This document shows, piece after piece, positions 1 through 21,014 of a stretch of 21,014 nt of DNA. Source of the stretch: Stramenopiles sp. TOSAG23-6. Its lineage: Eukaryota > Sar. Each line of letters opens with the position of its first letter. Position 1 is the stretch's first letter. Where the stretch lies: assembly GCA_900128565.1 (NCBI GenBank), contig LT636031.1:1-21014 (forward strand), read 5' to 3'. The translations under genes were made by a program, and so were the position numbers. The notes beneath the pieces are model-generated. The model saw only the letters and a list, made by a program, of their open reading frames with translations, searched no databases and had not been told where the DNA came from.

Positions 1-3000
1 AAAGGTAATGTTGGAGTAGTTGAACAACTTCTCAAAGCGGAGAATATTAACGTCAATCCGGCTACTGACCACGGATTTACCCCATTGTATATTGCTTCAG
101 ACAAAGGTCATGTTGGAGTAGTTAAAAAAACTTCTTAGTGCAAAGGGAATTGAGGTTAATCAGACTGATAAAAATGGAGCTACACCGTTGTATGTTGCTT
201 CAGCATGTGGTCATGCGGGAGTAGTTCAACTACTTATCAAAGCAGGTGCTGATGTAAATCAGGCTGATGAACACGGAGATACCCCATTGCTTATTGCTTC
301 ACAGAATGGTCATGCTGGAGTAGTCAAACTACTAATTGATGCTGGTGCTGATGTCAATCAGGCTGCAGCAGGCGAATATACCCCATTATATGTTGCTTCA
401 CATAAGGGTTGTGCAGGAGTGGTTGGGCTACTTATTGGTGCTGGTGCGGATGTCAATCAGCCTAACAAAAAAGGTGTCACCCCATTGTATATTGCTTCAC
501 AGGAAAATAAGGTAGAAGTAATTAAAAAGCTGATCGAGGCAAACGCATGTGTCAATTTTGCTGATAACTTCGGATCTACCCCATTGCTTATTGCTTCACA
601 GAAGGGTCATGTTGGGGTAGTTAAATCACTTCTCAAATCAGATGATATTGATATCAATCAGGCTAATGAAGACGGATATACCCCATTAATGATTGCTTCA
701 GCAAAGGGCAATGGAAAAATTGAAAAGCTATTGAAACTAAGGGGACTACAGCCCCTCTTTGATGCATTTGACAAAGTTGGCATACCATCTGCGAGAATCT
801 TGAGTAATAAAAACCCGAAGTTGGTGCAAGCATTTTCAGAGTTGAACACTCTAAACGACATTATTGAAGGTACTTTCACAGCCCTTGAAAATCTTTGCGG
901 TTCTATGGATTCAATGAATGTAGTAGCCATTAAAAACGAAAATAAAAAGATATGGACATCATTTATGGAAGCCTATGAAACAAAACCAAAGTATAAAGAT
1001 TTCACAAAGCTCAGCAAAAGATTACATAATAAATTTTGGAAAATCATAAAAATCAATTCGTGGATCAATAAATATGAGAGTCCGGGGACACAAGAAAGCA
1101 AATCCGGTGAAACTTTGCAGTCTCAAAAATCAAAACGTGCCCATCCGAAGCAATCACTTCCCATATCTCAGAAGAAGGAGGCAAGTAAAAAAGACAAAAA
1201 CAGTGGTGAGAAAACGCAACAACTAAAACCAAATACGAAGCAATCATTTCCCAAATCTCAGAAGAAGGAGGCAAGTAAAAAAGACAAAAACAGTGTTGAG
1301 AAAACGCAACAACTAAAACCAAATGCAACTGAACAACAGTCGCTAGAATTAATGTGGCAATCAGTCAATGATCAACTACCAAACGAACGATTTAGCTGGG
1401 AGCAACAGAAAGCAACAGTTGAAGCAAAGGAAGTAAAAGACAGTCTGTCTATAACTTTAAGTAATGGTATTGCTAATGATATTCCAATGCAAGCCATGGG
1501 GGGTACTGCGTCTGCCGCAAGAGCCGATGATGAACATATTGATTCTGCAGCCAATGCTGAACATATTGATCATAAAGTACAGGAGTTGTATGAAACAACA
1601 CTTGGGTCACCCGTTGCAAAGATTGTCAAAGGAAATGGAGGAGGAGGAGGTGGTAGTACCAGTTTAAGCAGGCGACAAAGAAAGAAGAAAAATAAAAGAG
1701 AAATGCAACGTTATAAAACAATCTTGAAAAATACTCGTGTTGAGTATAGAAATCCTGTGGCGAAATGGATAGAAACTGCAGGAAAAACAGAATTGAAACA
1801 ATTTGCAAACATTGTGCAAAATATTTATTACCCAAATCGCAATCATAAGAAAATATTACAAGGCTATAAGGGTGAGTATGGTAACTTTGTGATAGAAGCT
1901 CGTCTGGATAAAGCTGCACGTGTTTTATTTGAGCTACGAGGAAAGGATGATGATGGACATGTAAATCCGGCAGTCATTCATCGAGTTGTATTAGATCATG
2001 ACGATGTACCACACTATGCTAGTCAAATTGCGCATAATCTTAGTTCTCCAGATATGATATCAATGGATGCAGAATCAAAGGGAGCAGAAGAGGCAAAAGA
2101 ATCTAAAGAAGTTGCATCAGATATGAAATTTCGGAAAAATGCAGGCGCTGTGAAACGATTTTTCTTTGAACCTAATGAAGACTTTGAATGGTTACATCAG
2201 GATAAGAGAGCAATGGATCGCTATCAACAGTTAGAAGATACACAAAATAAGCTGGTGCAGATGAATGGATATCTAGCGATTCAAGGCCGAAGTGGTACAG
2301 GTAAGTCTATTGTGTTATTACATCGAATGCTACGCTGGCATTATTATCAACAAGGAGAAGTTGAAGCTAACGAAACGAAACGCGTGTATACTCAAGTATA
2401 TATTGCAAAATCGAAACTTCTTACAGATGCAATAAAGAATAAAGTATCACCTGATGAGTGTGATGCAAAATATGCGAAAATGAAGTTTTTACCACTTGTT
2501 GTTTCTAAGGCAAATCCTGAATTTACTACACTACTAGTATATTTAGAGAATGAGACAAAGCCTTTAGACCATGAGCCTGAGCGTGTGTTTTCAGAGGATA
2601 TGCGTGTTGATTTCATATTGTTCAAGAAATGGTATGATGGGGAGCACGGATTTAAACCAATCCAAAGGCGAAGTAAGCTTACATTCTCTGCACTAACAGT
2701 GTGGACACAAATACAATCCATTATCAAAGGTTCTTTACAAGCATTTAAGAGTGGTAAGCCATTGACTAGAGAAGAATATTTGGCATATAATGGACGCAAA
2801 GTACCGTTTAAAAAAGAGGAGCGAGAGGTGATCTATGCTGTATATGAACGTAGTCAAAAATCATATGGCCTCAACAAATATGATAATGGTGATCGTGTTT
2901 TACAATTAGCTCGGAGGCTTAATAGAAAAGATACTGGATGGAAAAGTGGAATACATCCTTTTGATCGTGTTTATGTAGATGAAGTGCAAGATTTAACTCC

Positions 3001-4093
3001 AGCTGAACTTGCATTAATTTTTATGGCTGTTGGTGAGAATCCAAAAGCAGTTACTGTAGCAGGTGATGTAGCCCAACAAGTCACTGCCGGTGTAGAGTTT
3101 AAATTTAGTGATGTTCTGACAGTAATGAATATGCATAAAATAAACCCTGCATTTCGTAAACAAAAGGAAACTTTTAGAGCAGACGCAAAAATATTGACTG
3201 AAAACTTCCGTACACATCAAGGTGTGCTCAAACTAGCAAACTATTTTATTAATCTTCTCAGAAAGGACTTTTATTTAGAAAATGCACTTGAAGAACATAG
3301 TAAAAATATGGGGCCTCCTCCAGCGACATGGGTAACTACTATTGAGCAACTTTTGGTAGAGTTGGGTGAGAAATCTAGTGCATTGTTGCTTTTCATAGAT
3401 GATACTTCAAAACAAGCATTCCGTCAGTCGAAAGCATTTCAAAAACTAATGGAAAAAAAACAGCAAACAATACTTATGTTTACAGTTGTCGAAGCAAAAG
3501 GTCTTGAATGGGAACATGTTGTTCTTGTTAATTTCTTTTCAACGCCGAATATGAGATGGAATACAAAGCATATTTCAAAGGACCCCGATACTAAACATTT
3601 GTTAAAATTGATTTACACGGGAATAACACGATGTCAGAGTCGTCTTTTTATCGTCGAAACTAATCCATTCAAAGGTTCTCACCCAGCACTCGGTAAAATA
3701 AAAGACTCAACTCAAGTGTATCATCAAACGTGTGAAGCACCAAAACTAGCATTAAACCAATTGCAATTGAACCAATTTGGTATGATTAAACAAGGTTTTA
3801 TGTTGGTATCAATGGCACTTAATGGCGAAGGCGATCAATACCAGTTTTTGTCACAAGCTGCAAATGCATTTGCATTAGCAAATAGGGAGGACTTAGCTGA
3901 AAGAGCTATTGCAACTAACTATTGTATGAATAGCTCTCTTGCATTTCGAAATGAGGAAAAACTTGTATTATTTGTAAGTAATTGTATTAAATGTGGAATG
4001 TATAGTAAAGCAAAGCAAGAGGTGGTCAAGTGGTATAGTAAAAATCCTCTTCATATTGATTATTTGAAAGCAATAGAAGAAAAAATTCAATAA
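1..4093 (+). CDS. Ankyrin-repeat / UvrD-like SF1 helicase protein (TRANK1-like), 5' partial, one frame break
   Basis: The gene enters from beyond the left edge. Bases 1-123 encode about one and a half ankyrin repeats. A run of seven A at 124-130 then shifts the frame, and the old frame stops at 136-138. The downstream frame is open from 122 to the TAA at 4091-4093. Numbering codons from 188, the protein has about six ankyrin repeats (1-180), a Lys-rich linker with a 30-residue tandem repeat, a Gly6 run, a region resembling the RelE/ParE fold that precedes some UvrD helicases (about 520-615), and an SF1 helicase core. Core motifs are Walker A GRSGTGKS (700-707), DEVQD (931-935), GDVAQQ (959-964), ENFR (1005-1008), EAKGLEWEH (from 1102) and YTGITR ending at Arg1148. 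This order resembles TRANK1-type proteins. The ATPase motifs look intact. Substrate and role are unknown. No intron is visible. Codon 188 is TTG, not a true start; the first in-frame ATG near 688 would remove the ankyrins, so the real start lies upstream. Confidence 0.85.
1147..1326 (+). repeat. Two tandem 90-bp units inside the helicase gene
   Basis: Units at 1147-1236 and 1237-1326 differ at only a few bases and keep the frame. Each encodes a 30-residue Lys/Ser/Gln-rich segment containing QKKEASKKDKNS. This is a recent in-frame duplication in the linker between the ankyrin and helicase parts. Confidence 0.9.
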
Positions 4094-4371: not shown

Positions 4372-5499
4372 TCATTTTGTTGTTCTTTTCAAACACTCGT
4401 TCTTGTGTGTAATCTTCCAATGTATTTTCTGACACTTTTTTGAACAATATGTCGCACAGTTACACCGACTACAAAGAAGCATTTTATAATGTGTACCCTC
4501 TTTACCACAAGTAAAACATGTTGATTTGCTGTATTTAATTATTAATCTCTTTACCTCATCATCTTCTACATCTTTTATCTGCTTTTTGGCCTTTGCATTC
4601 CACTTTGATGCAGTTTTCAAACATTTAGTGACACCACGACCATGATAATAGCAGCAACCAAGCATACATTGTGCAGTACTATCACCAGCATTCGCAGATT
4701 TAGTATACCACTTAAAAGCTTCTTTTTTGTCTACAGCAACACCATCACCATCTAAATAGCAATAACCAAGATGATTTTGTGCATAACTATTACCAGCATT
4801 TGCAGATTTAGTATACCACTTGAAAGCTTCTTCTTTATCTATAGCAACACCAACACCATTATCATAGCAGACACCAAGATTCTTTTGTGCACTACTATTA
4901 CCAGCATTCGCAGATTTAGTATACCACTTGAAAGCTTCTTCTTTATCTATAGCAACACCAACACCATTACCATAGCAACAACCAAGAGTATATTGTGCGT
5001 AACTATCACCAGCATTAGCAGATTTAGTAAACCACTTGAAAGCTTCTTTTTTGTCTACAGCAACACCATCACCATTAAAATAGCAATAACCAAGACTGCA
5101 TTGTGCTACACTATCACCTGCATTCGCAGATTTAGTATACCATTTGAAAGCTTCTTCTTTGTCTTCAGCAACACCATCACCATTATCATAGCAATTACCA
5201 AGTTGATTTTGTGCAGTAATATTACCAGCATTTGCAGATTTAGTATACCACTTGAAAGCTTCTTCTTTGTCTTCAGCAACACCATCACCATTTTCATAGC
5301 AATAACCAAGATGATTTTGTCCATTGCTATTGCCAGCATTCGCAGATTTAGTAAACCACTTGAAAGCTTCTTTTTTATCTTCAGCAACACCATCACCATA
5401 AAAATAGCAACAACCAAGACTGTTTTGTGCGGCACTATTACCTGTATTAGCAGATTTAGTATACCGCTTGAAAGCTTCTTGTTTGTCTTTTGCGCCCAT
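4372..5499 (-). CDS. Sel1-repeat protein with C-terminal MYND zinc finger
   Basis: This is an intronless 375-residue protein that starts MGAKDKQEAF and ends at a TGA at 4372-4374. Residues 8-295 form eight almost identical 36-residue Sel1-like repeats with the pattern EAFKWYTKSANAG...LG.CY..GDGVA.DK. Sel1 repeats are alpha-helical solenoids that scaffold protein complexes. The tail (328-369) has the Cys/His spacing of a MYND zinc finger: CFTC, CSRC, YCSKKC and HWKITHKNEC. MYND fingers bind proline-rich partners. A cytosolic or nuclear adaptor role is inferred. The repeats are very similar at DNA level, which indicates recent expansion or gene conversion. No signal peptide or membrane segment is seen. 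The upstream region and first codons are duplicated at 5596-5723. Confidence 0.9.
   Translation of the reverse strand: MGAKDKQEAFKRYTKSANTGNSAAQNSLGCCYFYGDGVAEDKKEAFKWFTKSANAGNSNGQNHLGYCYENGDGVAEDKEEAFKWYTKSANAGNITAQNQLGNCYDNGDGVAEDKEEAFKWYTKSANAGDSVAQCSLGYCYFNGDGVAVDKKEAFKWFTKSANAGDSYAQYTLGCCYGNGVGVAIDKEEAFKWYTKSANAGNSSAQKNLGVCYDNGVGVAIDKEEAFKWYTKSANAGNSYAQNHLGYCYLDGDGVAVDKKEAFKWYTKSANAGDSTAQCMLGCCYYHGRGVTKCLKTASKWNAKAKKQIKDVEDDEVKRLIIKYSKSTCFTCGKEGTHYKMLLCSRCNCATYCSKKCQKIHWKITHKNECLKRTTK
4615..5478 (-). repeat. Eight tandem 108-bp Sel1-coding units
   Basis: The coding sequence repeats every 108 bp (36 codons) eight times. Units differ mainly at a few codons after SANAG and at the GDGVA/GVGVA position. 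The last unit, nearest the 3' end of the gene, is the most diverged. The high DNA identity makes copy number prone to change and to assembly collapse. Confidence 0.9.
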
Positions 5500-5723
5500 C
5501 TTGAAGATACTCTGATACTCTCTCTCTCTCTCTCTCTCTCGCTTGGATGCTAAACACTGAACAACGTAACGAATGTTTAGTTGTAGTTAGTGCTTTTGTC
5601 TTTCGCGCCCATCTTGAAGATACTCTGATACTCTCTCTCTGATACTCTCTCTCTCTCTCTCTCTCTCCCTTGGATGCTAAACACTGAACAACGTAACGAA
5701 TGTTTCGTTGTACGTAGTTAGTG
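5483..5723. repeat. Tandem duplication of the Sel1 gene 5' end and upstream CT-rich region
   Basis: Unit 1 is 5483-5592 and unit 2 is 5596-5723. Each holds, on the minus strand, the first codons of the Sel1 gene (MGAKDK), a CT/GA microsatellite, and the same flank containing TGCTAAACACTGAACAACG. Unit 2 has a longer CT array (about 5630-5667). In unit 2 the start codon at 5612 is followed by MGAKDKSTNYN and then leaves the Sel1 sequence, so it is a truncated copy of the gene start. Confidence 0.85.
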
Positions 5724-7788: not shown

Positions 7789-9433
7789 TTAGATATCTAC
7801 AATTTTACACAAATCATCAATATTATAACGAGGCATAGTTTTACTATCTTTCTTTTGATGAATATTCCAAATACATTGAGTGATTAATTTTGTCATTGCC
7901 ATGTCTACAGAGTCATACATTTTTTTACATTTACTATAATCTATGTTTATACTTTCTTCTTTGTCAAACTCTGTGAGTTTATTGTTTTCAACAGTATCAT
8001 TAAACTGTTTTATCGCGGTATAAAAATCTTTTTTAGATCCAAAATGGCCGAAACCAAAACCATAACGATTTATTCCAACCATTCTTAGTGTTTGTTTCAA
8101 CGAATTTTTATCATTATTTCGTTGATTCTTCTGAGCTTTACATGAATGTCTCATGAAAATCCGACCCCATTTACATGTGCTAGGTGGAATATCTACTATA
8201 CTTTCCTTACATTTTTGGAATGATTTTTTATCATGTTTCAGAGTGAAATTGCCTGCATTTTTGTCATTGTACAAAATCGAGGACTTTCTTGTAGTTGACA
8301 TATTTGTATTGATCATAGTTTTTATATTTGAAGTTTTCGTTTGATTACATACAAATGCATCTATAGAATTCAAAGTTTTCTTTTCTTTTACTCTACATAT
8401 TTTGTGAAAAAATATTTTTTTTTATACAATTTGTTAGGTACGAAATTTCGTACGAAAAAATAATTGAAAAAAAAAATCTATCTGTAAAGTACTAACAAAT
8501 TCAGAGGAGAGACAAGTTGTCCCTTTGAGCTTTTGAACTGTTGTCCTAAACCAATGAATAATACTGTATATATGTATTGTGAAAACAAATTTCAAAAAAA
8601 AATGTTTTTTTGTTAGGTACAAAATTTGGTACAAAAAAAATAAAATAGAAATTTGTAAAATGTACAATAAAAATCGATAAAAAGAAGTTCCCTACAGTTG
8701 TATGACGTAGCCAATGTCTTGTTTCAAGTATGCTCCATGATGTATTATTATGCAAATTGTTACTCCTAGATACATCTTGGTTAACAACGAAATCTCCAAC
8801 AATTATGCCGTGGTTACAGCCTACTTGAAACTCTACACCTTCTACTGGCTGTATATGGCTACATATGACTCTATCAGAGTGAGTTGAAGCAATATTATCT
8901 CTAATTTTTAACCGATACCAAGTATTTGGTTTGAGGGTTATAGTATTCAAGTTACTTAACTTTGTCAAATCAAAGAGTATACTTTGGGGATTTACATGAT
9001 CATCATTAGAGATAGTAGTACTATCTACACCATTTTTACACACATTCTTTGGAAAAGTATTCTTTAAAGGGAAACTTGATAAAGACGATAAAGACGGACT
9101 AGTCGTACAACTATTAATTTGATAGTAACTATATAAGTTAGGTATGACATGAATATTTTCAAGAATGAGACCACAAGAAACAACCTGATCATCTAATAGT
9201 CCACTGATTCTAAATAAAGATGTTGTTCTTCGAGGAAATGGTTCACCATATTTACACGAAGTCATAATATCTACAAAGTAATAATAAGAAGACAGTTTTG
9301 TTGTTGGACTTTTTTTTGTGCTAGCATTACAATTACAAAGCTTATTTTTGTTATCGGGATGACAGGTTGTATTTTTCAAATTAATGGGAAGACGATCTTC
9401 ATCATCCAGCGACTCGGAAAGTTGCAAAGACAT
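7789..9433 (-). CDS. Orphan three-exon gene with a predicted membrane segment
   Basis: The exons are 8666-9433, 8493-8571 and 7789-8396, joined across two repeat-family introns. Together they give 1455 nt, or 484 residues, starting with ATG (MSLQLSESLDDEDR) and ending in TAA. I do not recognise the family. The first exon encodes a probable beta-rich domain with the stretches NTWYRLKIRDN and VEGVEFQVGCNHGIIVGDF, plus a Cys-rich N-terminal patch. Splicing brings together a hydrophobic stretch at about 247-266 (NFFLSIFIIYSIIHWF) that could be a single membrane helix. The remainder is polar and Lys/Asn-rich, with a C-terminal half containing GINRYGFGFGHFG. No signal peptide is evident. Exons upstream of 9433 cannot be excluded. 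The intact frame across both junctions supports a functional gene. Confidence 0.65.
8397..8492 (-). other. Repeat-family non-canonical intron, orphan gene intron 2
   Basis: This is a 96-nt element beginning GTACTTTACAG and ending CACAAAATAT. It contains the perfect 16-bp palindrome GTACGAAATTTCGTAC (8438-8453) followed by CTAAC. Removing it joins EFV-S to RVKEKKTLNS in frame. The boundary can only slide right, through a shared GTA, and not left. Confidence 0.75.
8572..8665 (-). other. Repeat-family non-canonical intron, orphan gene intron 1
   Basis: This is a 94-nt element beginning GTACATTTTAC, with TTTTGTACCTAAC in the middle and ending TTTTCACAATACAT. Removal keeps phase 0 and joins FI to IYSIIHW. 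Read-through of the intron would stop soon afterwards. Confidence 0.7.
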
Positions 9434-9544
9434 CGGAAAATGATAATATCGAACTTTGTTTTACCATCTCATGATGATGCAACACACGAGAGAAAGAATC
9501 TCTGTGTATGACAGTCCGGTTTTTTGATTGATGAAAAATAATAT

Positions 9545-9561
9545 CCGAACTTCAAGTTCGG
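9545..9561. repeat. Short perfect inverted repeat
   Basis: Two 8-bp arms (CCGAACTT / AAGTTCGG) flank a single base. It lies upstream of the orphan gene and downstream of the RAMA/Tudor gene. It could be a protein-binding palindrome or a 3'-end hairpin; the sequence does not decide. Confidence 0.7.
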
Positions 9562-9620
9562 ACAGGTTTGTCAGAATTCGATTTTTCAATTATTATGTAT
9601 GCGCATTTTCCCCCATGCTT

Positions 9621-9643
9621 TTGATTTCATCTGATGAAATCAA
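9621..9643. repeat. Perfect inverted repeat with 11-bp arms
   Basis: The arm TTGATTTCATC is followed by one T and then its exact reverse complement. It lies 60 bp from the other palindrome in the same intergenic region. The tight centre suggests a dimeric protein-binding site rather than a stable RNA hairpin. This is inference. Confidence 0.75.
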
Positions 9644-9755
9644 ACTCAAAATCTGAATATCAAAGAAAAGTATATCATCATGAGAGTTAGAGTTTTTTTA
9701 TTATCAACAGTAATTAATAATGAATTACTTGAATAAGTCAACTGCTTAAATTCTC

Positions 9756-11885
9756 TTATTCATTTGAACAAACATTTTTCATAATCCATTCACCTTCCTC
9801 TAGTGCACATGTAGCATGCGTTGGATGCGTAGGTAATGCAATCCATGTATCTTTCTCTAGTGCTGCTGTCGCAGTAAGACTTTTATAAACAGTTTCATTT
9901 AATTTCAAAGTGTTTTTAATATCAACACCAAGTAATACTGATATTGTCTTTATCGACTCCTTCTTTCTTCGACCCTTGACTATATACCAATATATTGCAT
10001 CTCCCCATTTCATAATATTAGCACTATCCTTTAAACTGCTTGTATTACTCATTGTTTTAGACTTACTATATGTTGAACGTTTGGCTTTTGAGCAAGGAAC
10101 TTTTGTAGTTTCATGTTTGCTATGTAAACAATGACACGAAATCTCTCGAAATGATTTGTCAGAAGAATTACATTTCAATCTATCACACGAATAAATAGTC
10201 TCATATGCCCCCGAATTTTTATACCTTACTTCAATGCCGTTTTTATTTTCAAAACACTCGCGAAATGAAGCTCTATACCATGCATTGTGAAAAATACCAA
10301 AAATCAATTCGTTAGGTACAAAATTTTATACAATTTTTTTTTGAAATTCATGATAAGAAAACATACACGTACCTTTATATTCTACCATAAGGCCCGCATC
10401 ATTCAAATGTAATGCATTAGCCCATGCAGACATACAAGAAGGAAGATTTGAGTGAGAAATACTGCTGGAAGTGGAAGAAGCACTTTCTTGTTGTGATAAG
10501 AGATTTTGTTCTTGATATTTACATTTGTATGACTTATTACTAAGCATATCCTCAGTTGAACTCTTCCTTTTCTTTCTGTATGACTTATTACTAAACATAT
10601 CCTCAGTTGAACTCTTCCTTTTCTTTCCAGAACTTTTCTTACGTGTTTTAGAAGTTTTGCTTGAAGTGGCAGAAGAAGGTGCAGATATTGAAGATAAGTA
10701 TTGATTACGAAAAGATAAGTATTGATTACGAAGTGATTGTAATGAAACTCCAGCCTGTTTCACACTTAACCAACCATTATCAGTTTTTTTCGATGGTACA
10801 ATCCTGCGCTTCGTACATGTATTTTGGAAAAATATTTCAAAACAAAATTGTTCGTTAGGTACAAAATTTCGTACGAAAAAAAATTCGAAATTAAAAAAAA
10901 TAAAATATACATATAGCCCAGCCAGAAGGTGCGTTAAACATAGCTCTAGTAGTTTCATCAACAATTATACCTTCTTTGGTCAATGCGGCATTGAAGACAA
11001 CACCTTTGAAAGTTATTGTCAGTGCTTTTGGACCTGATAATAAAATCCCGGATTTGACAAGATCTAGAAGACTACATGTATTTTGGAAAAATATTTCAAA
11101 AAAAAATTGTTAGGTACAATTTCGTATGAAAAAAAATTGGAATTCGAAAAAAAATAAAACATACATGACTTTGAGGAGTTTTCATCTTCAATATCAGATG
11201 AATCAATAGCCGAATCAGTCGCCGAATTAGATGCTGAATCAAATAAAGATTCATCGGAATTATGATTTCGTTTGTTAAACTCTTCTTCTTCACTTCCAGA
11301 AGAAGTATTTGAAAAATCATGTTTTTGGTATTTATTGTAGTAGATTTGGCGAGAGTTACGTATTTTCTGAACATTTTTCGCTGAAGGAACATTTACTTGA
11401 CCTCGATGCCTCAATAGAATTCGAGGAAATATCTGAACATTACCATTTGGAAACTCCAACCAATCGGCAGTGTTGTTATCATAATCGATCAGAAATATCA
11501 ATACGTGTTGATTTTTTTTATGTTGCTGATTGTTTGTTAGGTATGGATTTTTTTCAGCAAATGGAGATAAATTAGGTAAATCCTCTTGTAATAAAACCAA
11601 AGTTTTTCCCACATCAGATTTCTTTATATTGTAATACAACTTGATGTACCCCAAAATAAGTTGGTTGTGATATCTGACTTGTACTCTCCTTCCAATAAGG
11701 TTAGGAAAATTATTCATAATAATCTGAGATTGATGAGGGTGAGCATAAGAATGAACTTGTCGAGAGTTATTCTTTATATGTCTAACTCTTTCCGTCTGAC
11801 CATCTCTTTGAGTATTGTTACTGATAAGTTGGCCAGGTTTATCGGAATTTACGCCAATTGCATCAGGAAGAGAAAATGCTCTCAT
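9756..11885 (-). CDS. Putative chromatin protein: Tudor-like, RAMA, Tudor-like, LysM-like (four exons)
   Basis: The exons are 11165-11885, 10911-11075, 10367-10816 and 9756-10279. They total 1860 nt and encode 619 residues, from ATG 11885 to TAA. Domains are read by eye. Residues 63-155 are Tudor-like (LIGRRVQVRYHNQLILGYI ... LIDYDNNTADWLEFPNG). An acidic Ser/Asp tract follows (196-240). Residues 243-330 match the RAMA pattern (LLDLVKSGIL, FKGVVFNAALTKEGII, FNAPSGWAI, NGWLSVKQAGVSLQSLR), which is found in MPND and in restriction/methylase-associated proteins. A Lys/Ser-rich tail resembling a nuclear localisation signal comes next. Residues 438-475 are a second Tudor-like segment (VEYKGTWYRASF ... 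IEVRYKNSG), and 546-595 are LysM-like (ESIKTISVLLGVD ... DTWIALP). The RAMA fold is interrupted by an intron and becomes complete only after splicing, which supports the exon joins. Binding of modified DNA or histones is inferred, not shown. Confidence 0.75.
10280..10366 (-). other. Repeat-family non-canonical intron, RAMA/Tudor gene intron 3
   Basis: This is an 87-nt element beginning GTATGTTTTC, with TTTTGTACCTAACG inside and ending CACAATGCAT. Excision joins VEYKGT to WYRASF and completes a Tudor-like strand pattern. It is the shortest copy and its central palindrome is partly decayed. Confidence 0.7.
10526..10627 (-). repeat. Two tandem 51-bp units in the RAMA/Tudor gene
   Basis: Units 10526-10576 and 10577-10627 encode two nearly identical 17-residue blocks (KKRKSSTEDMxSNKSY). 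They are basic and could act as a duplicated nuclear localisation signal. A separate 21-bp duplication near 10691-10732 repeats RNQYLS. Confidence 0.85.
10817..10910 (-). other. Repeat-family non-canonical intron, RAMA/Tudor gene intron 2
   Basis: This is a 94-nt element beginning GTATATTTTAT, with TTCGTACGAAATTTTGTACC then TAAC, and ending CCAAAATACAT. Excision joins SGWAI-C to TKRRIVPSKK within the RAMA domain, giving the expected Pro-Ser ... NGW spacing. Confidence 0.8.
11076..11164 (-). other. Repeat-family non-canonical intron, RAMA/Tudor gene intron 1
   Basis: This is an 89-nt element beginning GTATGTTTTATTT and ending CCAAAATACAT. CATGTA is present at both junctions. Excision gives SKS-C-SLLDLVKSG in frame. 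Using the nearby AG (GTAG) as a canonical acceptor would create an immediate in-frame TAG. Confidence 0.8.
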
Positions 11886-12273
11886 CTCAAGTGACAATAG
11901 TGTTTTTTTCGAAAGTGGTGAAAGAAGAATCCATCAACAACAACGAAAAAAAATCCGCTGTTATTTTTTTCAAAAACACGAAAAATTCAGATTTTTTTTT
12001 CATGTTTTCCAAGGTTGAACATTTGAAATGATAAATATTTTTAAAAACATCATATTTTCATTAATTCTATTCCGATGGCAAAATTTTTCTGAAGCAAACG
12101 CTGATGATGATGAAACTGTAGTTCATTTAGATATTCTATGTTTTGAAACTTAAAGTAGTGAATTAACAATGAGTCACTTGAATGAGTCCTCTTATTAAAT
12201 TTCTACAAATTCAATTCAATTTTGAAAATAAACAAGGAATATCTATTTATTATGTACGATGAATCAATTTCAT
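11886..12273. other. Intergenic region between VPS53 and the RAMA/Tudor gene
   Basis: This 388-bp AT-rich gap holds the 3' flank of VPS53 and the presumed promoter of the RAMA/Tudor gene. It contains several T8-T9 tracts near 11905-12000. No gene, intron-family copy or strong palindrome was seen. Confidence 0.5.
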
Positions 12274-15163
12274 TCAATTTTGGCTACTACTACTACTACT
12301 TCCCATTCTGAACATTGATGCAAAATTAGCTGCTGTTGCTGCCGCAGTATTCGTATTAAATCGTTGTGAGAGTTCTGCGGCAGCATCGGACACAGTTCCT
12401 GTAAGACTTGTCGGTTTATACTCGAGACCCATCTTTTCAATAACTTCCTGTTGATCACTTTTCTTCTCACCTTTTAGGGTCATAACACGTTGTAAATCTG
12501 CAGCGGTGCCACCAACCCATAAAATTTTAAAACTTTGAGGTAAACGTTCCAAAGGAGTCCCGATTAGTTTCAGCAGCATGACGGCTTTATTCGCTTCTTT
12601 ATTTGCATATTTACTGAATGTGGAGAGAGATCGAATCATCGTAGCTTTTTCATCAGATTCTAAGTCTGAAGTCGGAACAGAAAGAAATGATGTTTTAACA
12701 GCATGTGTATCGAGTAATAGTTGTTGTGCAGCCATTTCACTGATGCGTTTACATTTGAAGATATTTTGTGTAAATCGCGGTAAAAATAAAGCTGCGAAAC
12801 GATCACAGAAATTATTAAAGTAAATCGGTCCAGATAGCGCAGAACGAATGGGTATCACTTGTTCCCGAAGTATTTTTGATATTTCAACCACATAAGGAGA
12901 CTGGTCGCCAACATCAACACATGTATTTTGGAAAAATATTTCAAAAAAATCGTTAGGTACAAAATTTACTATAAAAAAAAATTCCGAAATTGAAAACAAA
13001 TAAAACGTACATGTACCCCACGGCATTCGATGCATTGCAATGAGAGAGGGTTCTAATTTAACGACACAACCAGATATTTATTGTGAAAAAATATTTTTAA
13101 AATTTGAAATTCATTAGGTACGGAATAATTTAACAAAAAAAACAAATAAATAAAAATATGAAATTCATAAATGTAAAACGTACACTAGACACTTAATCGC
13201 TGCTCCAATGACATCATAAAATGCATCGGGAGAAATATCAATATGTATTTTGGAAAAATATTTCACAAAAAAAAAATTGATTTTTGTTAGGTACAAAATT
13301 TCGTATGAAAAATAAATTAGAAATTGAAAAAAAAATAAAACATACATGTTCCTCAAATACTTCGTCGATTTCATCTTGTAGCAACTCTTCTAATTGGGGC
13401 GAAGTCTCCGCACAATAGGCAGCTGTGTTTACAATAAAACAAATCCAGTCACGAGTTTTATCATCTTTAATAACAAAATGATCTCCTAAAGAAGAATTAA
13501 ATTGAGACTTTGGAAGTTTTTCACTTAATCTTTCAGAATATGTTGCTAAAACAGATTTAATTTCCTTTTGAAGTAAAAATAAAGTTTGACCATTAGAAAA
13601 ATGAACACAACGTTCGATTGCTTTTTTGATATATCGAAACAAAACTGCCGCAGATTGTAAAACTCCAATGTTACCTGATGTCATGTTTTCTTCTTCTTCT
13701 GACATAGCCTGTTCCATAATAGTAATCATATTAGCCTTTTCAGCTTCTACATATTTTGACAAATATGGTTGAAATGCTGCGCTAATTATGCCTTTAAACT
13801 TTTTCAATTGTATTTCATTATTTATATTATCTCCATTTTTTCCATTGAGTGACGTAGCACTCCCAAGTGGTGCATTAGAGGTGTCATCAAGACCATCATT
13901 AAAACGATTTGTCTCTCTTTTCTCTTTTTCTTTCTTTTCACGTTCGATTCGTTTGGCTTCAGTCCTCTGTTTTTCATATTTTCTACGAATGCCTTCTGCA
14001 CTATTTGGATCAATTAATTGACCATCATCATCAAATTCTGGACCACCTCCACCACTACGATTTGTTGAATCATCAGAATCTTCAATTTCTTTAAAACGAT
14101 CACATAACATACGTTCAAATGATTTGGTTACACGAAGATGATGCATTAATAATTTCACATGCAAATCTTCGTTCAATAAAGAATTCAATTGAAGCCGCGT
14201 CGCTTCACAAAATTGAATACAAATGCGCCGACACATTTGCCAATTTTGGGGGAAAACGTCAGCTAAATGTTTATCAAAGATCTTGAGAAGTCGTTTAAAC
14301 CATTTAAAACGTCGATCAACTGCAGCTTCTTCAGTTAAAATATAACCTTCGCCACCTCTCCCAAATAATCGATTATATGGACGAAGTTGATCTTCATAAA
14401 ATAAGCGGATAAGTCTCTTTTGATGTGTACCACCGATTGATTCAACTACGAGGCAAGCATCACGTAGAGCTTCAGGGTCTATACCAGCTAACTGAGGATT
14501 ATCTATAATTGCTCCAACTTCTCGAAATTGATCAAATATTTTCTCCTTTAAATCTTTTTGAAGCTCTTTGACGACACCACATAACTCAGCCACCTTTGGT
14601 ACATCCGTGTATGCTTCAAAATATGATGCTAATGATGTTACAGCACTCACCAGGTACGCTGCACGGTTATATTCTCCAGTCTTTGACATCTTTTGGAGTT
14701 GGTCAATGGCAGTCACCCACATTTGGAGCTTCTTCAGGGATGCAATTGTCGTAGTCAAGTGATGCTTTGCGGAATCTAATTGTTTAATATCGCGGCATAT
14801 TTCTTCTACCATTACTTCAGACTGCTCTGCTTTTGACTTGATATCTTTTATTTTGTGCGAAAGCTGCAGGATAGACTGCTTCGCATCATCTACATCACGT
14901 GAAGTCTGCTTTGAAGCAACAGCCTGTTCTCTAATTGCTTCAAATATTTCCTCATCTAAATTTTGTATTCGATCATTTAAATCTACAGAAAATTGATCAA
15001 TGCGTGAAAGGGATACTTCATCTGGAAATTGTGTGTTCAAATACGCAATAGGATCAAAGTCAGCACAATCTAGAGGGTCGTCCGAAGGAAGCACGTCTGC
15101 GATAGCTCGTTCTACAGCATCACTGAAACGGTCACGATCAACTGGACTCTGAGATGCTGGCAT
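12274..15163 (-). CDS. VPS53: VPS53, GARP/EARP tethering complex subunit (four exons)
   Basis: The exons are 13346-15163, 13184-13242, 13011-13075 and 12274-12920, totalling 2589 nt or 862 residues. I chose ATG 15163 because the longer open frame reaches only a GTG at 15181. VPS53 is a core subunit of GARP, which tethers endosome-derived vesicles at the trans-Golgi; EARP shares it. The N-terminal region has the family opening (DPLDCADFDPIAYLNTQFPDE style), then a long helical coiled coil and the YNRAAYLVSAVTSLASYFEAY block. A charged Lys/Glu insert lies near 385-450. The C-terminal part has WICFIVNTAAYCAETSPQLE, VGDQSPYV, FKCKRISEMAAQQLLLDTH and the end of the VPS53 C-terminal domain. The order and spacing of conserved blocks run across all three introns, so the exon joins are checked by homology. 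The tail ends in a Ser run coded by a TAG/AGT trinucleotide repeat. This is a conserved housekeeping gene, probably functional. Confidence 0.92.
12921..13010 (-). other. Repeat-family non-canonical intron, VPS53 intron 3
   Basis: This is a 90-nt element beginning GTACGTTTTATTT, with TTTTGTACCTAACG inside and ending CCAAAATACAT. Excision gives MPWGTCVDVGDQSPYV, with the same spacing as other VPS53 proteins between the M-x-W motif and VGDQSPYV. The next AG acceptor (GACCAG) would delete VDVGDQ. Confidence 0.85.
13076..13183 (-). other. Repeat-family non-canonical intron, VPS53 intron 2
   Basis: This is a 108-nt element beginning GTACGTTTTACATTT and ending CACAATAAAT. It is the most diverged copy: the branch-like motif reads TACCTAAT and the central palindrome is lost. 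Excision joins IKCLV to SGCVVKLEPSLIAMHRM in frame, matching the VPS53 region that precedes the M-x-W motif. Confidence 0.8.
13243..13345 (-). other. Repeat-family non-canonical intron, VPS53 intron 1
   Basis: This is a 103-nt element beginning GTATGTTTTATTT, with ATACGAAATTTTGTACC then TAAC, and ending CCAAAATACAT. ACAT precedes both junctions. Excision joins EVFEEH to IDISPDAFYDVIG in frame. No AG exists near the 3' junction. Confidence 0.85.
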
Positions 15164-15477
15164 ATAGGCCGCCAAGGACACAACAGTATTGTGTTTGTAA
15201 TATCAATGTGGGAAGCAGTGCAAATTGAATTGGTATTTAAGTCTGCCTAAAATTCCAGCGAATGATGAAAGCGATGAGACGAATTAAGATGTCAACACGA
15301 CGACTTTGACCCACGGGAACCCTAACCCTAGCCTAGCGTGTCTATCAAGAATTTCAAAATTCATGATGGCTGTCATAAAAAAAACACTTTCGATTTCGGC
15401 AAGAGCAAAGCTTTGCCTTTGAGTTGTTCAATTTAAATTGGATCATAAAGTCGTGATTACTTCATATCGGAAAAAGA
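15164..15477. promoter_or_regulatory. Divergent intergenic region, VPS53 and DUF1330 genes
   Basis: This 314-bp interval separates divergent genes and should hold both promoters. It contains CCCTAACCCTAGCCTA at 15320-15335, which resembles two to three units of a CCCTAA telomere-type repeat. No clear TATA-like element or further gene was seen. Confidence 0.5.
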
Positions 15478-16116
15478 ATGCCGGAGACTTATCTTGTAGC
15501 GTACTTAAAAGTGACTGGAAATCTTGAAGAGTTCAAGACAGAATATGCAGCAAAAGTACCAAAGACTTTAGAACCCTTCGATGGACGCTATTTGGCAAAA
15601 GCTCTCCCTTTGAGTAATGCAAAATTTTCTGAAGGGACTACTGCAAAGGACTACACGTTGTGTGCAGTACTTGTATTTCCAAGCAAAGAAAAAGCTATGG
15701 CATGGAAAAGTAGTGCTGCGTATCAAGCTATCCTTCCTGCACGAAAAGCAAATACTCAAGGTCCTGTCGCCATTGTCGAAGGACTTGGAAATGAATCCAA
15801 GCTGAGTGGTAAGGTAAAGGCAATTCTTGTCGCTTTCCTCAATGTATCCGACATGGACACTTTCAAGCAATATGCAGGTAAAGTCCCAAGCACGTTAGAA
15901 CCGGTTAATGGCCAATATTTGGTCAAAGCCTTGCCTCTTGACAAAACTGCTCTTTATGCGGAGGGTTCGGAAAGTTTTACTCTCGCAGCTGTACTTGGTT
16001 TTGAAAGTATCGAAAAAGCTATGGAGTGGCACGACTCTAAACTTTATCATGAAGAAACTTTGCCTCTGCGCCTGAAAAGTGCTACTGGTCCAATGTGTAT
16101 CACTGCAACGCTGTAA
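15478..16116 (+). CDS. Tandem two-domain DUF1330 protein
   Basis: This is an intronless 212-residue protein from ATG 15478 to TAA. It consists of two homologous halves, about 3-100 and 112-210. Both contain the series YLVAYLKV / ILVAFLNV, KVPxTLEPxxGxYLxKALPL, a TLxAVLxFxSxEKAMxWxxS segment and a terminal GP(V/M) strand. DUF1330 proteins are small alpha/beta barrel (ferredoxin-like) proteins that usually form homodimers, so the fused copy probably forms the dimer within one chain. Enzymatic function is not established for the family. No signal peptide or membrane segment is seen; it is probably cytosolic. Confidence 0.85.
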   Translation: MPETYLVAYLKVTGNLEEFKTEYAAKVPKTLEPFDGRYLAKALPLSNAKFSEGTTAKDYTLCAVLVFPSKEKAMAWKSSAAYQAILPARKANTQGPVAIVEGLGNESKLSGKVKAILVAFLNVSDMDTFKQYAGKVPSTLEPVNGQYLVKALPLDKTALYAEGSESFTLAAVLGFESIEKAMEWHDSKLYHEETLPLRLKSATGPMCITATL

Positions 16117-16279
16117 TTGAAAGTGATGATTGAAACAATTCTACTAAAACGATAATCACAGTAACAATTCGCTAAGCAAAAATGTCCAATAGCGATGGGA
16201 TACACATAAAATTTTGGATATTTTTTAAGTTTCGAATATAAAAATGTAAAATTCCTCAAATGATTGTTTTATTATTTTT

Positions 16280-16296
16280 GAATAATAGTATTATTC
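16280..16296. repeat. Short inverted repeat between convergent genes
   Basis: GAATAATA-G-TATTATTC is a perfect 8-bp inverted repeat around one base. It sits in the 247-bp gap (16117-16363) between the convergent 3' ends of the DUF1330 and cysteine-rich genes. It may help 3'-end formation, but it is AT-only apart from the ends and could be chance. Confidence 0.5.
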
Positions 16297-16363
16297 TAAT
16301 TAACAATATTTGGTACACATTTGAATGTTTTTCGTCTCAAATCTTTAATAATATCTTCTGATA

Positions 16364-19300
16364 TTACAAGATAAACATTAAAATGCAAAAAGTTATACTC
16401 AAGAAGGACGCCAATTCTTTTGATGAAGCTCCACTTGAACCTAATGCCATCGCATGTACATTTTCAGCAGTTACAGTTGGAACTAAACCATTATTGACTT
16501 TTGCCGATAACAATCGATCTTTCGTTAATGCTTCCATCTCTTTTCCCATCAATTGGAGTTCATTTTTTTCTGATTCGTTAGCAGTCATTTGTACAGTCAT
16601 ATCTACTTTGAGAGAACCATCGTAAATTTTCACCCCATTTGTACCATTTTTAACAGATAGTAAACCTCCCGATTCAACTGCAGTCACAATTTCACTCTTA
16701 AGTTTTGCAGCGTTAACACTAGCATCATATTCCATATTGTATTTAAGAGTTATATCAGCACTAAATGTTGCTTTTGCATTCGGTTTAAGTTCTTTTTCTC
16801 CGCCTTTGCTGGTATCATCTTTTACGGTTACGTCTCCATCTTTTGTTTTGTCATTCGGTGTTGGAGTTTTGTCATTCGGTGTTGGAGTAGGAGGGCTAGT
16901 ACACGACGTTTTCTGTAATAACCAGTTGCCATCTGTATCACATTCCCTGGTAATAGCACCGCTTTGTCCAGAAGGGCACGCTATTGACGCTGTTTTGCCA
17001 GCTTCAGTGGTTGGAAAGCCATCAACTGCATTGCAATCAGGGGACTTCGGGGGAAGACCAACCTCCATATCACTCTGTCTCTTTACAAAGATCCATCGGC
17101 CTGCAGATAAACCAGTTGCGCAGAGTAAACCATCTTTTGTCGTAATAGTCGTCTTTATAGGAACACCAATGACACCCGATTCAGTAGATTGTGCAACATC
17201 GAGAGTATCAAATTTTGTACAAATCTCCTTATCAGGCACATCAACTTTCCTACACAATAATGTGCTGGCCCCTTCTACTTCAGTTTTTACAAACGAGTCA
17301 TTTAGAGTTTGTCCAATGATGTGCCCTTTAGCATTAGGTACGTTAGCCCATTTTTCACACGCTTGATATTCAGATGGCATAAGTCTTCTTCGTGTACTTA
17401 GGGGTTTTGTATTATAAAGACCAAGACCAAGTTCAAGGTTTTCAACAACACGTGTTTTGTCTCCACTTGAGCAACTTTTTGTTGTGCAACCACCAGGACA
17501 TGAAATACGGACACTTGCATTAGCCAATTCAAATCCACTCGACGCTATACTTTCACATAACACAGTTTTTGACTTGAGTACAACATTGACTACTCCTTTT
17601 TGTTCTTGAACTTTGTCACTTCCAACACCACACGCATTTGCCACAACAGAAATCGCTGCAACGTTAGGAGCCGTATGACATTGAATTTGACGTTTATACA
17701 TTTCATTAAATACGACAGCAATTCCATCATCAATTAATGCATCCATTTTTCGTCTATCAATATCATCATCCACAACATACTTTGAAGTGTACTCTCTCTT
17801 CATCCATTGTCCCCGTCGAACTTCACCTGCAGTTGTCCACTTACCTGGATACCATTGTGCTCTGGGGTACCACTTTTTATCTGAACATTTACTTGTATTT
17901 TCACAGTCTGCTTTGCTCAATCCGGTCTCGGTCCAATCATTGTGTTTAGATCCACATGTACCTCCATGGGCATCACACGATACTTTATCGTTGGCCTCTT
18001 TAATCCATTTGTGATTTTTCATTGCTTCGCATTCTCCTTTTTTATACACTGGAGCATGGCAACCAAATTTATGTGCGTAATCGTAAGTACTGGCATTATG
18101 ATCACCATTCAGAAAAATATTACGACAGGACTTGCGTCGGCCAGTTTCATCGGGTTCATATGGAAGTATACACTTACCACCACGTACATCCCAATCTGTA
18201 CATTCCCCTTGCTGAGTACATTCGGCTTCAGTTTTACACGATGAATGTCTGTAGAATTTACACTGCATCAAACGTGACATTTTGGCCTCCGTGACAGATA
18301 ATGTATGAAGTGACAATACTGCATCTTTGTGTTCATTAATACAATCTTGATCACTTGTTGGAGCAGATGTCATATTACGTAAAAAACATGTTTGTGTCCA
18401 CCAATCAAAGTCACCTTTAGCAGCATGACATGAAGTATAATCCGTCGCCGATTTAACTTCACATGAAACTTCACATTTTCCACGGTCAGACTTACTATCT
18501 TTACCTGATAATGTGCTACATGAATAAAATGTCGCCGCTTCCTTTTTGCATACTGCTTCACCTTGCTCATCATTAAAATCAAAATCGCGAAGCAAGCAAA
18601 CCTTTTCGGTATCATTCCATTCATACTTTGATGTGCAATCATTTTGAGATTTATCAACAACACACAATGACTTTTTAGCATTATACGAAGTATAATTGTT
18701 ATGACATGCAGAACAATGCCTGTTGCAACTTCCAGAATCTTCACCAAGACATTTGGCATTATAATCCCTACCCTGATTCCTCCTGTAACAAAGGCCTTCT
18801 TCGCATGCTTGTTTACTGTCGTTGTAACCTTTATAATGAGTTCGACCTTCCCACCATTGACCAGCATTTTTTTCACAATTTGCTTTGTTCACGTCAGTTT
18901 TGCTATGACTCCTAAACACAAGACACAAACCAGCCCCACTAGCATAGTTGCTGTAAAAATAAAGACCCGAAAACATTGGGATAGTATTATTAGCAGTTTT
19001 TAATGAATGACACTTATCGTTATCGTTCTTATCAGGAAAGAAACACATGGGTTCTCGACATTGATGATGGTCTCGATTTTCATTATGATCAACCGGCAGA
19101 ATGGATTCGTTTGGTTCACATTTCACTACCCACTGGTTCAATTGTTGCTTTGTCTTTGTGTCACATGTTGAAGTATCACATTTCTTAATATGCTCACAAT
19201 AAGCCTTTGAGTCTGTTTCAATATGATGAAAATATCCTGGAAACTTTGACGATGCATCCTTAAAACATGCTTTAACACACGTAGGTGGGTATGTCGTATT

Positions 19301-20964
19301 CCTACGAGGTTTAGGACATACTTCTGACGGTAAACATTTTTGCAAATTCCTCTTATCAGGACGCCCACAAATGTTTCTACCATGTCTTGACAGTAAAGTA
19401 GATTTAGTAGTGAGAATTTCTGTCTCAACTTTTGTCCATGCACTATGACCATTTTCCGAACAAGTGCACCCTCTATTTTTATTCCAGTAGCATCTCTCAA
19501 TTACGCATTGATCTAAATCCATGTCTTGTTCACAATTACCACCTCCACAGTATTGCCCACAAAAAAAGTTATCACCATTAACATCAGTTACACCTTCTTT
19601 TTTGAAACATTCATCTTTTGTAGTTGGTGTCACTCCATTATCTCTCCAATTACAGTTCTTTTCTAACTCGCACAATGAGAGATTGGCCTCTTGCCATACA
19701 TGTCCATTAGAAGTATAAGCATAACCAGACTTAAGTCTATGAAATGTACCAACTGATTCATTTACATCAACCCATTTGTAATCAAGATCTTTTTGACAAT
19801 CAACCTTTGCATGGTTCACATACGTCTCACCATTTTTTGCTTTCGTAGCAGTTGGTACACAAAACGACAATTTCTTTACAGCAGTATCGCAACTAACAAT
19901 CATCTCTGAATCAAGACGATTTTGCGCCGAATCACCAAAATGATTTTGGCCTACTTTACAGTAACTTTTCTTATTTTTGTCATCATAGAGAGAGGTCACT
20001 GTAATGCCATTCATAGCTTCCAATGCTTTGCATTGTTCTTCTGTTAGAGGGCCTGTTTTCAAATCAATCATACACACACCCTGTTCATGCATGTATCCAC
20101 TACCAACACAATTTTTCATTGTAACCTTTTTCATCCATTTTTGTTCTGCACAGTAGTAATAATCGCTCGGTTTTTTTATCAACTCTGTTGCTTTCGTCAA
20201 ATCCGAAGGGCAAACTAAACTTTTAGAAGTTGGAACATCGTATAAACCTGCCAACAGTCCACTAGAATTCACAATTTTACTACTGAATCCTAAATCATCT
20301 GCAACATAATCCCAAACGCCCGGATCTTTCTCAGTGCCATGAGGAGCATTTTGTACCCAACATTTAAATAATGCTTTTGCTGCAGCTGATCCACTCATTT
20401 GCGTACATTGTTTCTTGCTATGATTGTCAGAGCATACTCCAGAATAACAATCACTCGATGTTGTGCAATCGTCTAAATTTGCCTTTGTTTTACCGTGATA
20501 TACAGCCGATTGACATTCATTGACAAATTTCCTTGCTGCGTCAATGTCGTCCTCTGATGCATTTTGCTCAACTTCACTATCGCAGTTCATATCACCTGGA
20601 ATATTTTTCAGGTACATCTGTTTACCGTAATATTGAATAAAGGATTTTGCTTTTTCATAATCAGCACCACATCCTCCAGGTTCAGTCTTTTCTTTTTTTG
20701 CAATTGCCGTCGCTGTATCAGAAAGCACACAATCATCTTTACCTGGTTCACCACCTACTCCAACAGAACACGTGTCAGTGTGAACACCCACTTTTTCTTC
20801 TCTGACGCAACATTGTGTCCACGCAGCAATTTTGCTACAACAAGGATCCTTGTTGAATTCGGCTTTTTTTGCTGGATCATTTGGATCTATTGTACAAGCC
20901 ACTGAATTGGGTAGCGTAACGGTAGTCGTTGCAGGTGTCAAAAAGGAATCAAGGTAGTGTAAGC
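16364..20964 (-). CDS. Giant cysteine-rich surface protein, probably GPI-anchored or tail-anchored (5' partial)
   Basis: This is a single 4601-nt 3' exon encoding about 1533 residues and ending in TAA at 16364. The exon begins inside a codon at 20964, just after the 3' end of a repeat-family intron. The start and any signal peptide lie beyond the window; the internal TTG at 20941 is not a start. The chain is packed with cysteines (patterns such as CxxxxxCxW and DCxxxxxC), Trp and Lys, with many N-x-S/T sites, so an extracellular disulfide-bonded protein is likely. Near the C-terminus is a sushi-like module (CNAVDGF ... ITRECDTDGNW ... C), then a repeated linker PTPNDKT, then a cysteine-free alpha/beta region that could be SEA-like. 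The last residues (GSSGASSKELASFLSITFCILMFIL) are a small-residue site plus a hydrophobic end, as in a GPI-attachment signal. Role in adhesion or cell covering is inferred. I do not recognise a named family. Confidence 0.8.
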
Positions 20965-21014
20965 ATGTATTGTGAAAAATATTTTTTTTTTTGGTTTAAA
21001 AAAATCGTTAGGTA
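20965..21014 (-). other. Repeat-family non-canonical intron, 3' part only, cysteine-rich gene
   Basis: The last 50 bases match the 3' half of the intron family: TACCTAACGATTTTTTT, a T-rich tract, then AATATTTTTCACAATACAT. The exon starts with GCTTACAC. The 5' half lies beyond the window. Confidence 0.8.

Follow-up and report, generated by a model that had tools for sequence, protein, structure and literature searches.

Introduction

The AG that closes an intron at its 3′ end is among the most constant rules of eukaryotic genes, and the question raised by the locus described here is whether an uncultured, single-celled marine stramenopile reads a different ending. The stretch concerned is contig LT636031.1 of Stramenopiles sp. 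TOSAG23-6 (GenBank assembly GCA_900128565.1), which was analysed over its whole length of 21,014 nucleotides (nt) and is called the window below. It holds nine related short elements, I1 to I9, eight of them complete (103, 108, 90, 89, 94, 87, 94 and 96 nt for I1 to I8, respectively) and one truncated at the contig end. All nine lie on the minus strand, which is the sense strand of their four host genes, and all nine end in AT. As judged from the sequence, they are probably (with a probability of about 0.82) U2-type spliceosomal introns with GT as one cut site and a non-standard 3′ AT as the other, including an introner-like subgroup, ending in CCAAAATACAT, that would have multiplied recently. 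If this is true, a genome with a uniform AT acceptor, in which GT, the branch site and the U tract are all kept, would set the reading of the 3′ end apart from the other steps of splicing. What must change for AG to be lost could then be tested by a comparison of U2AF1 and U1 in sister lineages. For such uncultured protists, the number of genes counted, the completeness scores and the gene losses claimed may also be biased.

Reading frames and homology across the junctions

Three of the host genes, with the eight complete introns, can be tested for the place of cutting. The gene for VPS53, a subunit of the GARP complex (12274..15163, minus strand), has four exons encoding 862 amino acids after GT..AT splicing, separated by I1 (13243..13345, phase 0, GTATGT..AATACAT), I2 (13076..13183, phase 2, GTACGT..AATAAAT) and I3 (12921..13010, phase 1, GTACGT..AATACAT). 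Gene B (9756..11885, minus strand; four exons, 619 amino acids) is interrupted by I4 (11076..11164, phase 1, GTATGT..AATACAT), I5 (10817..10910, phase 1, GTATAT..AATACAT) and I6 (10280..10366, phase 1, GTATGT..AATGCAT), and its spliced product carries a RAMA domain (PF18755) at residues 233-330. Gene A (7789..9433, minus strand; three exons, 484 amino acids, no Pfam match) contains I7 (8572..8665, phase 0, GTACAT..AATACAT) and I8 (8397..8492, phase 1, GTACTT..AAAATAT). Removal at GT..AT gives complete open reading frames in all three genes, versus none of the three when all introns are retained. The statement of the sequence-only reading that the copies lie in four genes and interrupt open reading frames is confirmed. 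None of the three frames needs a GT-AG intron to be complete, although no dedicated search of the window for GT-AG introns was made.

One alternative is that these are ordinary GT-AG introns, with an AG acceptor slightly downstream of the conserved 3′ block. It has in its favour that GT-AG is the eukaryotic rule, that an AG lies 4-40 nt downstream in all eight introns, and that an AG-free interval between branch site and intron end (see below) is the expected product of first-AG scanning. However, cutting at the first AG after the branch motif leaves no complete frame in any of the three genes, and neither does cutting at the second; the distance to the first AG is also inconstant (40, 23, 20, 4, 8, 7, 8 and 4 nt for I1 to I8).

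Homology argues in the same direction. A profile of 38 VPS53 homologues was used, from which the public model P0001 (discussed below) was excluded, and one intron at a time was moved over 19x61 boundary pairs, with 3′ ends from -15 to +45 of the assigned end. With GT..AT splicing the product scores 906.5 bits, and the best shifted boundaries reach 908.9, 906.5 and 907.7 bits for I1, I2 and I3, so that the assigned junctions are 0-2.4 bits off the optimum. The best GT/GC-AG pairs reach 867.6, 659.8 and 687.9 bits (losses of 39, 247 and 219 bits), and retention of I1, I2 or I3 gives 634.8, 660.1 and 882.0 bits. Close to the I1 junction, oomycete homologues have two residues more than the spliced protein. 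With these frames and scores, the downstream-AG explanation is very improbable.

In gene B, the RAMA domain scores 58.9 bits in the whole spliced protein and 60.8 bits alone. The middle exon followed by read-through into I5 falls to 32.4 bits, where the Pfam cut-off is 35.2. No RAMA match is obtained when the end of exon 1 reads through into I4, and a piece joined across I5 but lacking the first half retains 27.5 bits. Since the I4 junction is merely 6-8 residues inside the start of the match whereas that of I5 is well within the domain, the test bears mainly on I5. Two tandem duplications were also observed in the coding sequence of gene B, one of 51 nt (98%) at 10526-10627 and one of 21 nt at 10691-10732.

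Because the exon ends resemble the intron ends, all eight junctions can slide by at least one base with no change in the mRNA; the ranges of this neutral sliding, compared by hand, coincide in the eight introns only at GT..AT. Taken together, these results support the view that the elements behave as introns ending in AT, apparently removed at GT..AT or no more than a few nucleotides away, and we infer splicing itself from them. The 3′ AT acceptance put forward by the sequence-only reading thus appears well founded, from the frames of three genes, the homology of VPS53 and the RAMA domain for I5, with the nearby AGs rejected.

Sequence anatomy of the introns

The 5′ end is GTA[CT] in all eight complete copies and mostly GTAYGTTTTA, I8 starting with GTACTTTACA. 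A branch-site-like motif, TACCTAAC, is found in eight of the nine elements and as the variant TACCTAAT in I2, at 33-45 nt from the 3′ end (the distances in I8 and I9 being derived from tail lengths). It is followed by a U-rich tract and by a 3′ block like TTTTTC[CA][CA]AATACAT, both common to the elements. The closing triplet is CAT in seven, TAT in one and AAT in one, so that a YAY triplet (with Y for pyrimidine) ends eight of nine introns; it also precedes the 5′ site in four of eight. The 3′ ends come in two forms, namely CCAAAATACAT in I1, I3, I4 and I5, and endings like CACAATACAT in the divergent copies I2, I6, I7 and I8 and in I9. The partial I9 (20965..21014, minus strand) comprises the 3′ 50 nt, from TACCTAAC to CACAATACAT, up to the contig end, and stands 5′ of a Cys-rich open frame. 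Between branch motif and 3′ end there is no AG in any of the nine elements, against about 6.6 expected from composition, a figure that does not amount to nine independent observations since the copies are related.

The pattern TACCTAAY + 15-45 nt + TTTTTC[CA][CA]AA matches eight times on the minus strand (missing I7) and never on the plus strand, and in 300 dinucleotide shuffles of the window this TACCTAAY half-pattern is absent from both strands; a stricter, full-length intron pattern matches three times in the window and not at all in 300 shuffles. The set of nine copies, eight of them complete at 87-108 nt, with a 5′ motif, a central segment and a 3′ end in common, is as the sequence-only reading had described it. 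Five scans for the intron pattern, three in a collection of viral contigs and two in one of genome contigs, each gave no match, and scans of the window with Rfam (gathering threshold) and ARAGORN gave none.

With respect to the canonical features of U2-type introns, the 5′ GT with its U1-complementary extension, the branch site and the U tract are all present, and the 3′ AG is lacking. U12-type introns have the 5′ site RTATCCTTT and a branch site near the 3′ end. Assignment to this minor class was considered and rejected, given the mostly GTAYGTTTTA 5′ site and a branch motif 33-45 nt from the end.

Another possibility is that the elements are structure-guided, non-spliceosomal introns, whose ends are brought together by base pairing as in euglenids or hemistasiid diplonemids. 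The short, imperfect terminal inverted repeat AUGUA..UACAU could serve such pairing, and the boundary regions are indeed paired in the minimum-energy folds of I3, I4, I5 and I6 and partly in those of I7 and I8. They are unpaired in I1 and I2, however, and the fold energies are ordinary relative to shuffles (z scores from -2.3 to +0.5); moreover, the conserved GTAYGT, branch motif and U tract indicate U1, U2 and U2AF2, and this explanation is quite unlikely. A structural role was also considered for a palindrome, GTACGAAATTTYGTAC, located 5′ of the branch site, but visual inspection shows its loss in I2 and I3, so that it is not essential.

Composition and repetition could suggest instead mobile DNA of the MITE (miniature inverted-repeat transposable element) type lying in genes, either removed at the DNA level, as in ciliates, or disrupting the genes as pseudogenes. 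The elements are repeated and AT-rich (18.5% G+C, versus 35.1% in the exons of the three genes and 36% in the window), four of them are near-identical, and their ends carry the imperfect inverted repeats mentioned above. Against this, all nine are in gene sense, no match to the half-pattern lies outside genes within the window, the branch motif is strand-asymmetric, a target-site duplication is unsupported (see below) and the VPS53 exons remain conserved. Such an origin of the interruptions has, in our estimate, only a slight chance of being correct, and U2-type introns with an AT acceptor are retained as the preferred reading.

Public protein models of the same genome or of one identical at this locus

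The closest database match of spliced VPS53 is P0001, the EukProt entry 'GSMAST32.ASY1.ANO1.893.1', the next named relatives among those listed being oomycetes and brown algae. Seven blocks of P0001 agree without a mismatch with minus-strand translations of the window, and for every one of the six gaps between them a GT-AG junction exists that closes it. Since the model is thereby rebuilt letter for letter, the window belongs to the GSMAST32 genome or to one identical at the VPS53 locus. By its label, GSMAST32 would be a MAST-3 assembly (MAST-3A or MAST-3F) of Seeleuthner et al. 2018 (PMC5778133, sections consulted). Five of the six GT-AG introns of P0001 cut out coding sequence, with lengths (42, 57, 63, 81 and 102 nt) that are each divisible by three, and four of these five deletions overlap stretches present in homologues; the sixth begins within I1 and ends halfway through I3, part of which is translated.

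Further copies were searched for with the concatenated read-through peptides as query (151 candidates; database of 5.77 billion). Three proteins were found at an expectation value (E) of 10 or less, each of them a GSMAST32 model: P0121 (E 0.083) is a carnitine acyltransferase, P0122 (E 0.2) carries a lipase maturation factor domain, and P0123 (E 1.3) is a leucine-rich repeat protein. A query with the read-through peptide of a single intron gave no candidate sharing three words, within a length range that left out, for example, P0001. The three models hold six element-like stretches, whose heads all fit GTAY.. or GTAT.., although two of the head variants had been drawn up with the peptides already known. 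Four of five tails fit ..ACAT, the sixth stretch having no tail in the model, and read-through tails of the CCAAAATACAT type occur in P0122 and P0123. In P0121, the homology with carnitine palmitoyltransferase 2 resumes at STAAFKHGRTETIR, directly after codons fitting CACAATACAT; the same stretch starts with Met-Tyr-Val, so that the exon must end in AT, and T|CN would rebuild a conserved serine. The last exon base is T in all four starts of these models for which it can be deduced.

Forced GT-AG introns or read-through have thus apparently damaged all four GSMAST32 models considered, a count that is not a rate, because three were found by searching for read-through. According to the sections of PMC5778133 considered here, the gene finder used for MAST-3F was trained on MAST-3A, there being too few complete protein matches in MAST-3F. 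If GSMAST32 is MAST-3F, unrecognised acceptors would give that shortage. As pure speculation, the 'advanced pseudogenization' that the same sections report for the dynein heavy chain genes of MAST-3A might reflect unrecognised introns.

Relatedness of the copies and their origin

Pairwise identity among I1, I3, I4 and I5 is 86-93%, across two genes, VPS53 (I1, I3) and gene B (I4, I5), and their interiors, from the 5′ motif to the palindrome region, are alike beyond shuffles in all six pairs (z scores of 3.1-5.9). Pairs that involve I2, I6, I7 or I8 are 60-82% identical and have mainly the 5′ motif, the branch motif, the U tract and the 3′ block in common; in 20 of these 22 pairs the interior z score is below 2.5, the exceptions being I4-I8 (2.5) and I2-I7 (3.3). 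The earlier description of the family as near-identical thus holds for the four copies of the CCAAAATACAT subgroup and fails for the pairs with the divergent ones. From the interiors, a recent burst of copies seems therefore to be set within introns that share mainly splice signals. The AT-acceptor intron would then be a type, perhaps standard in the genome, inside which such a burst took place, and the more divergent copies could be the ordinary introns of the organism with strong signals.

It might be argued that none of the elements are introners and that all are ordinary introns under very strict splice signals, alike through constraint and AT-rich composition. The low interior scores of the divergent pairs are what this would predict, while the 86-93% identity of I1, I3, I4 and I5 extends to interiors with no known signal; as an account of the whole set it seems to us rather unlikely, though deserving more weight than the three alternatives above. 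It is compatible with the AT acceptor because it concerns the origin of the introns and not their acceptor.

The insertion sites provide additional information. The exon base 5′ of the intron is T in seven of eight cases (p of about 0.001, the frequency of T in exons being 0.301). Once joined, the exons look like ACAT|GTA, which echoes the intron's own ends just as CAG|G echoes those of ordinary introns. Target-site duplication as the cause of the like ends was tried by permutation, the likeness of the two ends being expected to be greater within copies than between them, and is not supported: position -3 is alike in six of eight copies versus 3.1 expected, with p values of 0.14 for four left positions, 0.25 for five and 1.0 for four right positions. 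Insertion preference or reverse splicing accounts for the likeness of the ends as well as a transposase does. What stands of the proposed introner family is the four copies that look like recent duplicates; a target-site duplication is unsupported, and the inverted repeats are short and imperfect.

Proposed mechanism and its weighing

With GTAYGT at the 5′ end, a branch motif and a U tract, the introns are presumed to use U1, U2 and U2AF2 as usual, and the way in which the 3′ end is recognised and used would have to differ. U1 would pair with GUAYGU, U2 with the CUAAC branch site, and U2AF2 would bind the U tract. A divergent reader of the 3′ splice site, most likely U2AF1, would accept the 3′ block UUUUUCMMAAUACAU, and the second step would join the exon after AU, the AG-free interval from branch site to end leaving no competitor. 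Pairing of the boundary regions possibly helps the choice of the 3′ end. The CCAAAATACAT subgroup may have multiplied recently at ACAT|GTA-like sites, whether by moving as DNA or through reverse splicing. A changed U2AF1 is the favoured cause of the AT acceptor, by analogy, because the YAY ends parallel those of Fritillaria borealis, a species with divergent U2AF subunits.

A bolder version, to which we give even odds, is that a stramenopile lineage inside MAST-3 has replaced AG by AT (UUUUUCMMAAUACAU|) as the 3′ rule for the majority of its introns or for all of them, and AG| by AT| at the exon end. A change in U2AF1, and perhaps one in U1, would have made this possible, and a mobile subfamily equipped with the new acceptor would insert at ACAT|GTA. 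Such a switch would have arisen independently of the YAY rule of Fritillaria, which it parallels.

Several points weigh against U2-type introns with an AT acceptor and a recently multiplied subgroup. The introns known as DNA are nine from a single contig, a small sample from which 'all introns of the genome' is an extrapolation. Moving the 3′ end of I1 six bases earlier gains 2.3 bits in the VPS53 profile, and many shifts score alike, so that the profile cannot place a junction to the nucleotide. The matches to P0121, P0122 and P0123 are each weak alone, these genes are known from protein models and not from DNA, and the tail of the second stretch in P0121 fits only ..TACGT or ..TATGT, not ACAT. 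To these are added the ordinary fold energies and the outcome of the permutation test, as well as the mobility of the copies, which we infer from nothing but their similarity.

Other genes of the window

The fourth host gene, of which the 3′ exon (16364..20964, minus strand) is preceded by I9, encodes a Cys-rich protein. The open frame as a whole (16364-20995, minus strand) spans 1543 amino acids, is Cys-rich with a hydrophobic C-terminus, and has no Pfam match at E 0.01. At the other end of the window, a long open frame (122-4093, plus strand) joins ankyrin repeats (99-nt tandem DNA repeat, 52-708) to a UvrD-like helicase region, an arrangement that we take to be reminiscent of TRANK1-type proteins. 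A Sel1-repeat protein with a C-terminal MYND finger is encoded at 4372-5586 (minus strand), with about eight DNA repeats of 108 nt (84% matches), and a duplicated block with a CT microsatellite (copies of 82 nt with 95% identity, beginning 127 nt from each other) surrounds the 5′ end of its gene at 5510-5718. Finally, a protein with two stretches of DUF1330, a family of unknown function, is encoded at 15478-16116 (plus strand).

Comparison with known systems

The following comparisons rely on the consulted sections of the papers cited. The larvacean tunicate Fritillaria borealis offers a striking parallel: a YAY triplet stands at the end of its AG/AC and AG/AT introns and often also before the 5′ site (PMC13326754), as in eight of nine and four of eight introns here. 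Its introns are spliced by the U2 spliceosome. Its U2AF subunits have been duplicated and have diverged, and the heterodimers built from them recognise non-canonical 3′ ends, so that these paralogues are a mechanism with experimental support (PMC13326754). However, the major classes of such introns in Fritillaria start with AG, and its intron ends are diverse (PMC13326754), whereas GT is found in all eight introns here together with uniform signals. Any likeness between the stramenopile and the tunicate introns is at most convergent.

Amoebophrya, also a marine protist, has repeated non-GT-AG introns that apparently spread like transposable elements, but its non-canonical introns lack fixed terminal dinucleotides, in contrast to the uniform GT..AT described here; the introner subset among them carries inverted repeats, 8-20 nt long, as well as direct repeats, 3-5 nt long (PMC7789003), whereas in the present elements the inverted repeat is short and imperfect and a direct repeat is unsupported. 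In the introners surveyed across eukaryotes, near-identical introns likewise occur in unrelated genes, and some families have neither target-site duplications nor inverted repeats (PMC9860276). These surveyed introners differ in having GY/AG core splice sites with rare GC and GA 5′ sites, and no AT acceptor is mentioned in the sections of that survey consulted (PMC9860276).

Hemistasiid diplonemids are marine protists with mostly non-GT-AG introns of pairable ends (median of 91 nt in Namystynia), yet without conserved terminal dinucleotides and without a clear spliceosomal role (PMC12621601), whereas GTAYGT and the branch motif are conserved here. Giardia resembles the present system in its strict signals ([G/C]TATGT, CT[A/G]AC) and in one GT-AT junction. 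That junction is isolated, however, and the control introns fuse branch and 3′ sites (PMC10711314), whereas the present introns end in AT as a rule, with 33-45 nt between it and the branch adenosine.

Among open-licence PMC papers, in the sections consulted, no report was found of AT-ending introns in MAST-3 or of a uniform GT..AT class in a stramenopile. The kind is thus a known one, non-canonical spliceosomal introns with an introner-like subfamily, as in Fritillaria and Amoebophrya, and what appears to be new is a uniform GT..AT class in a stramenopile.

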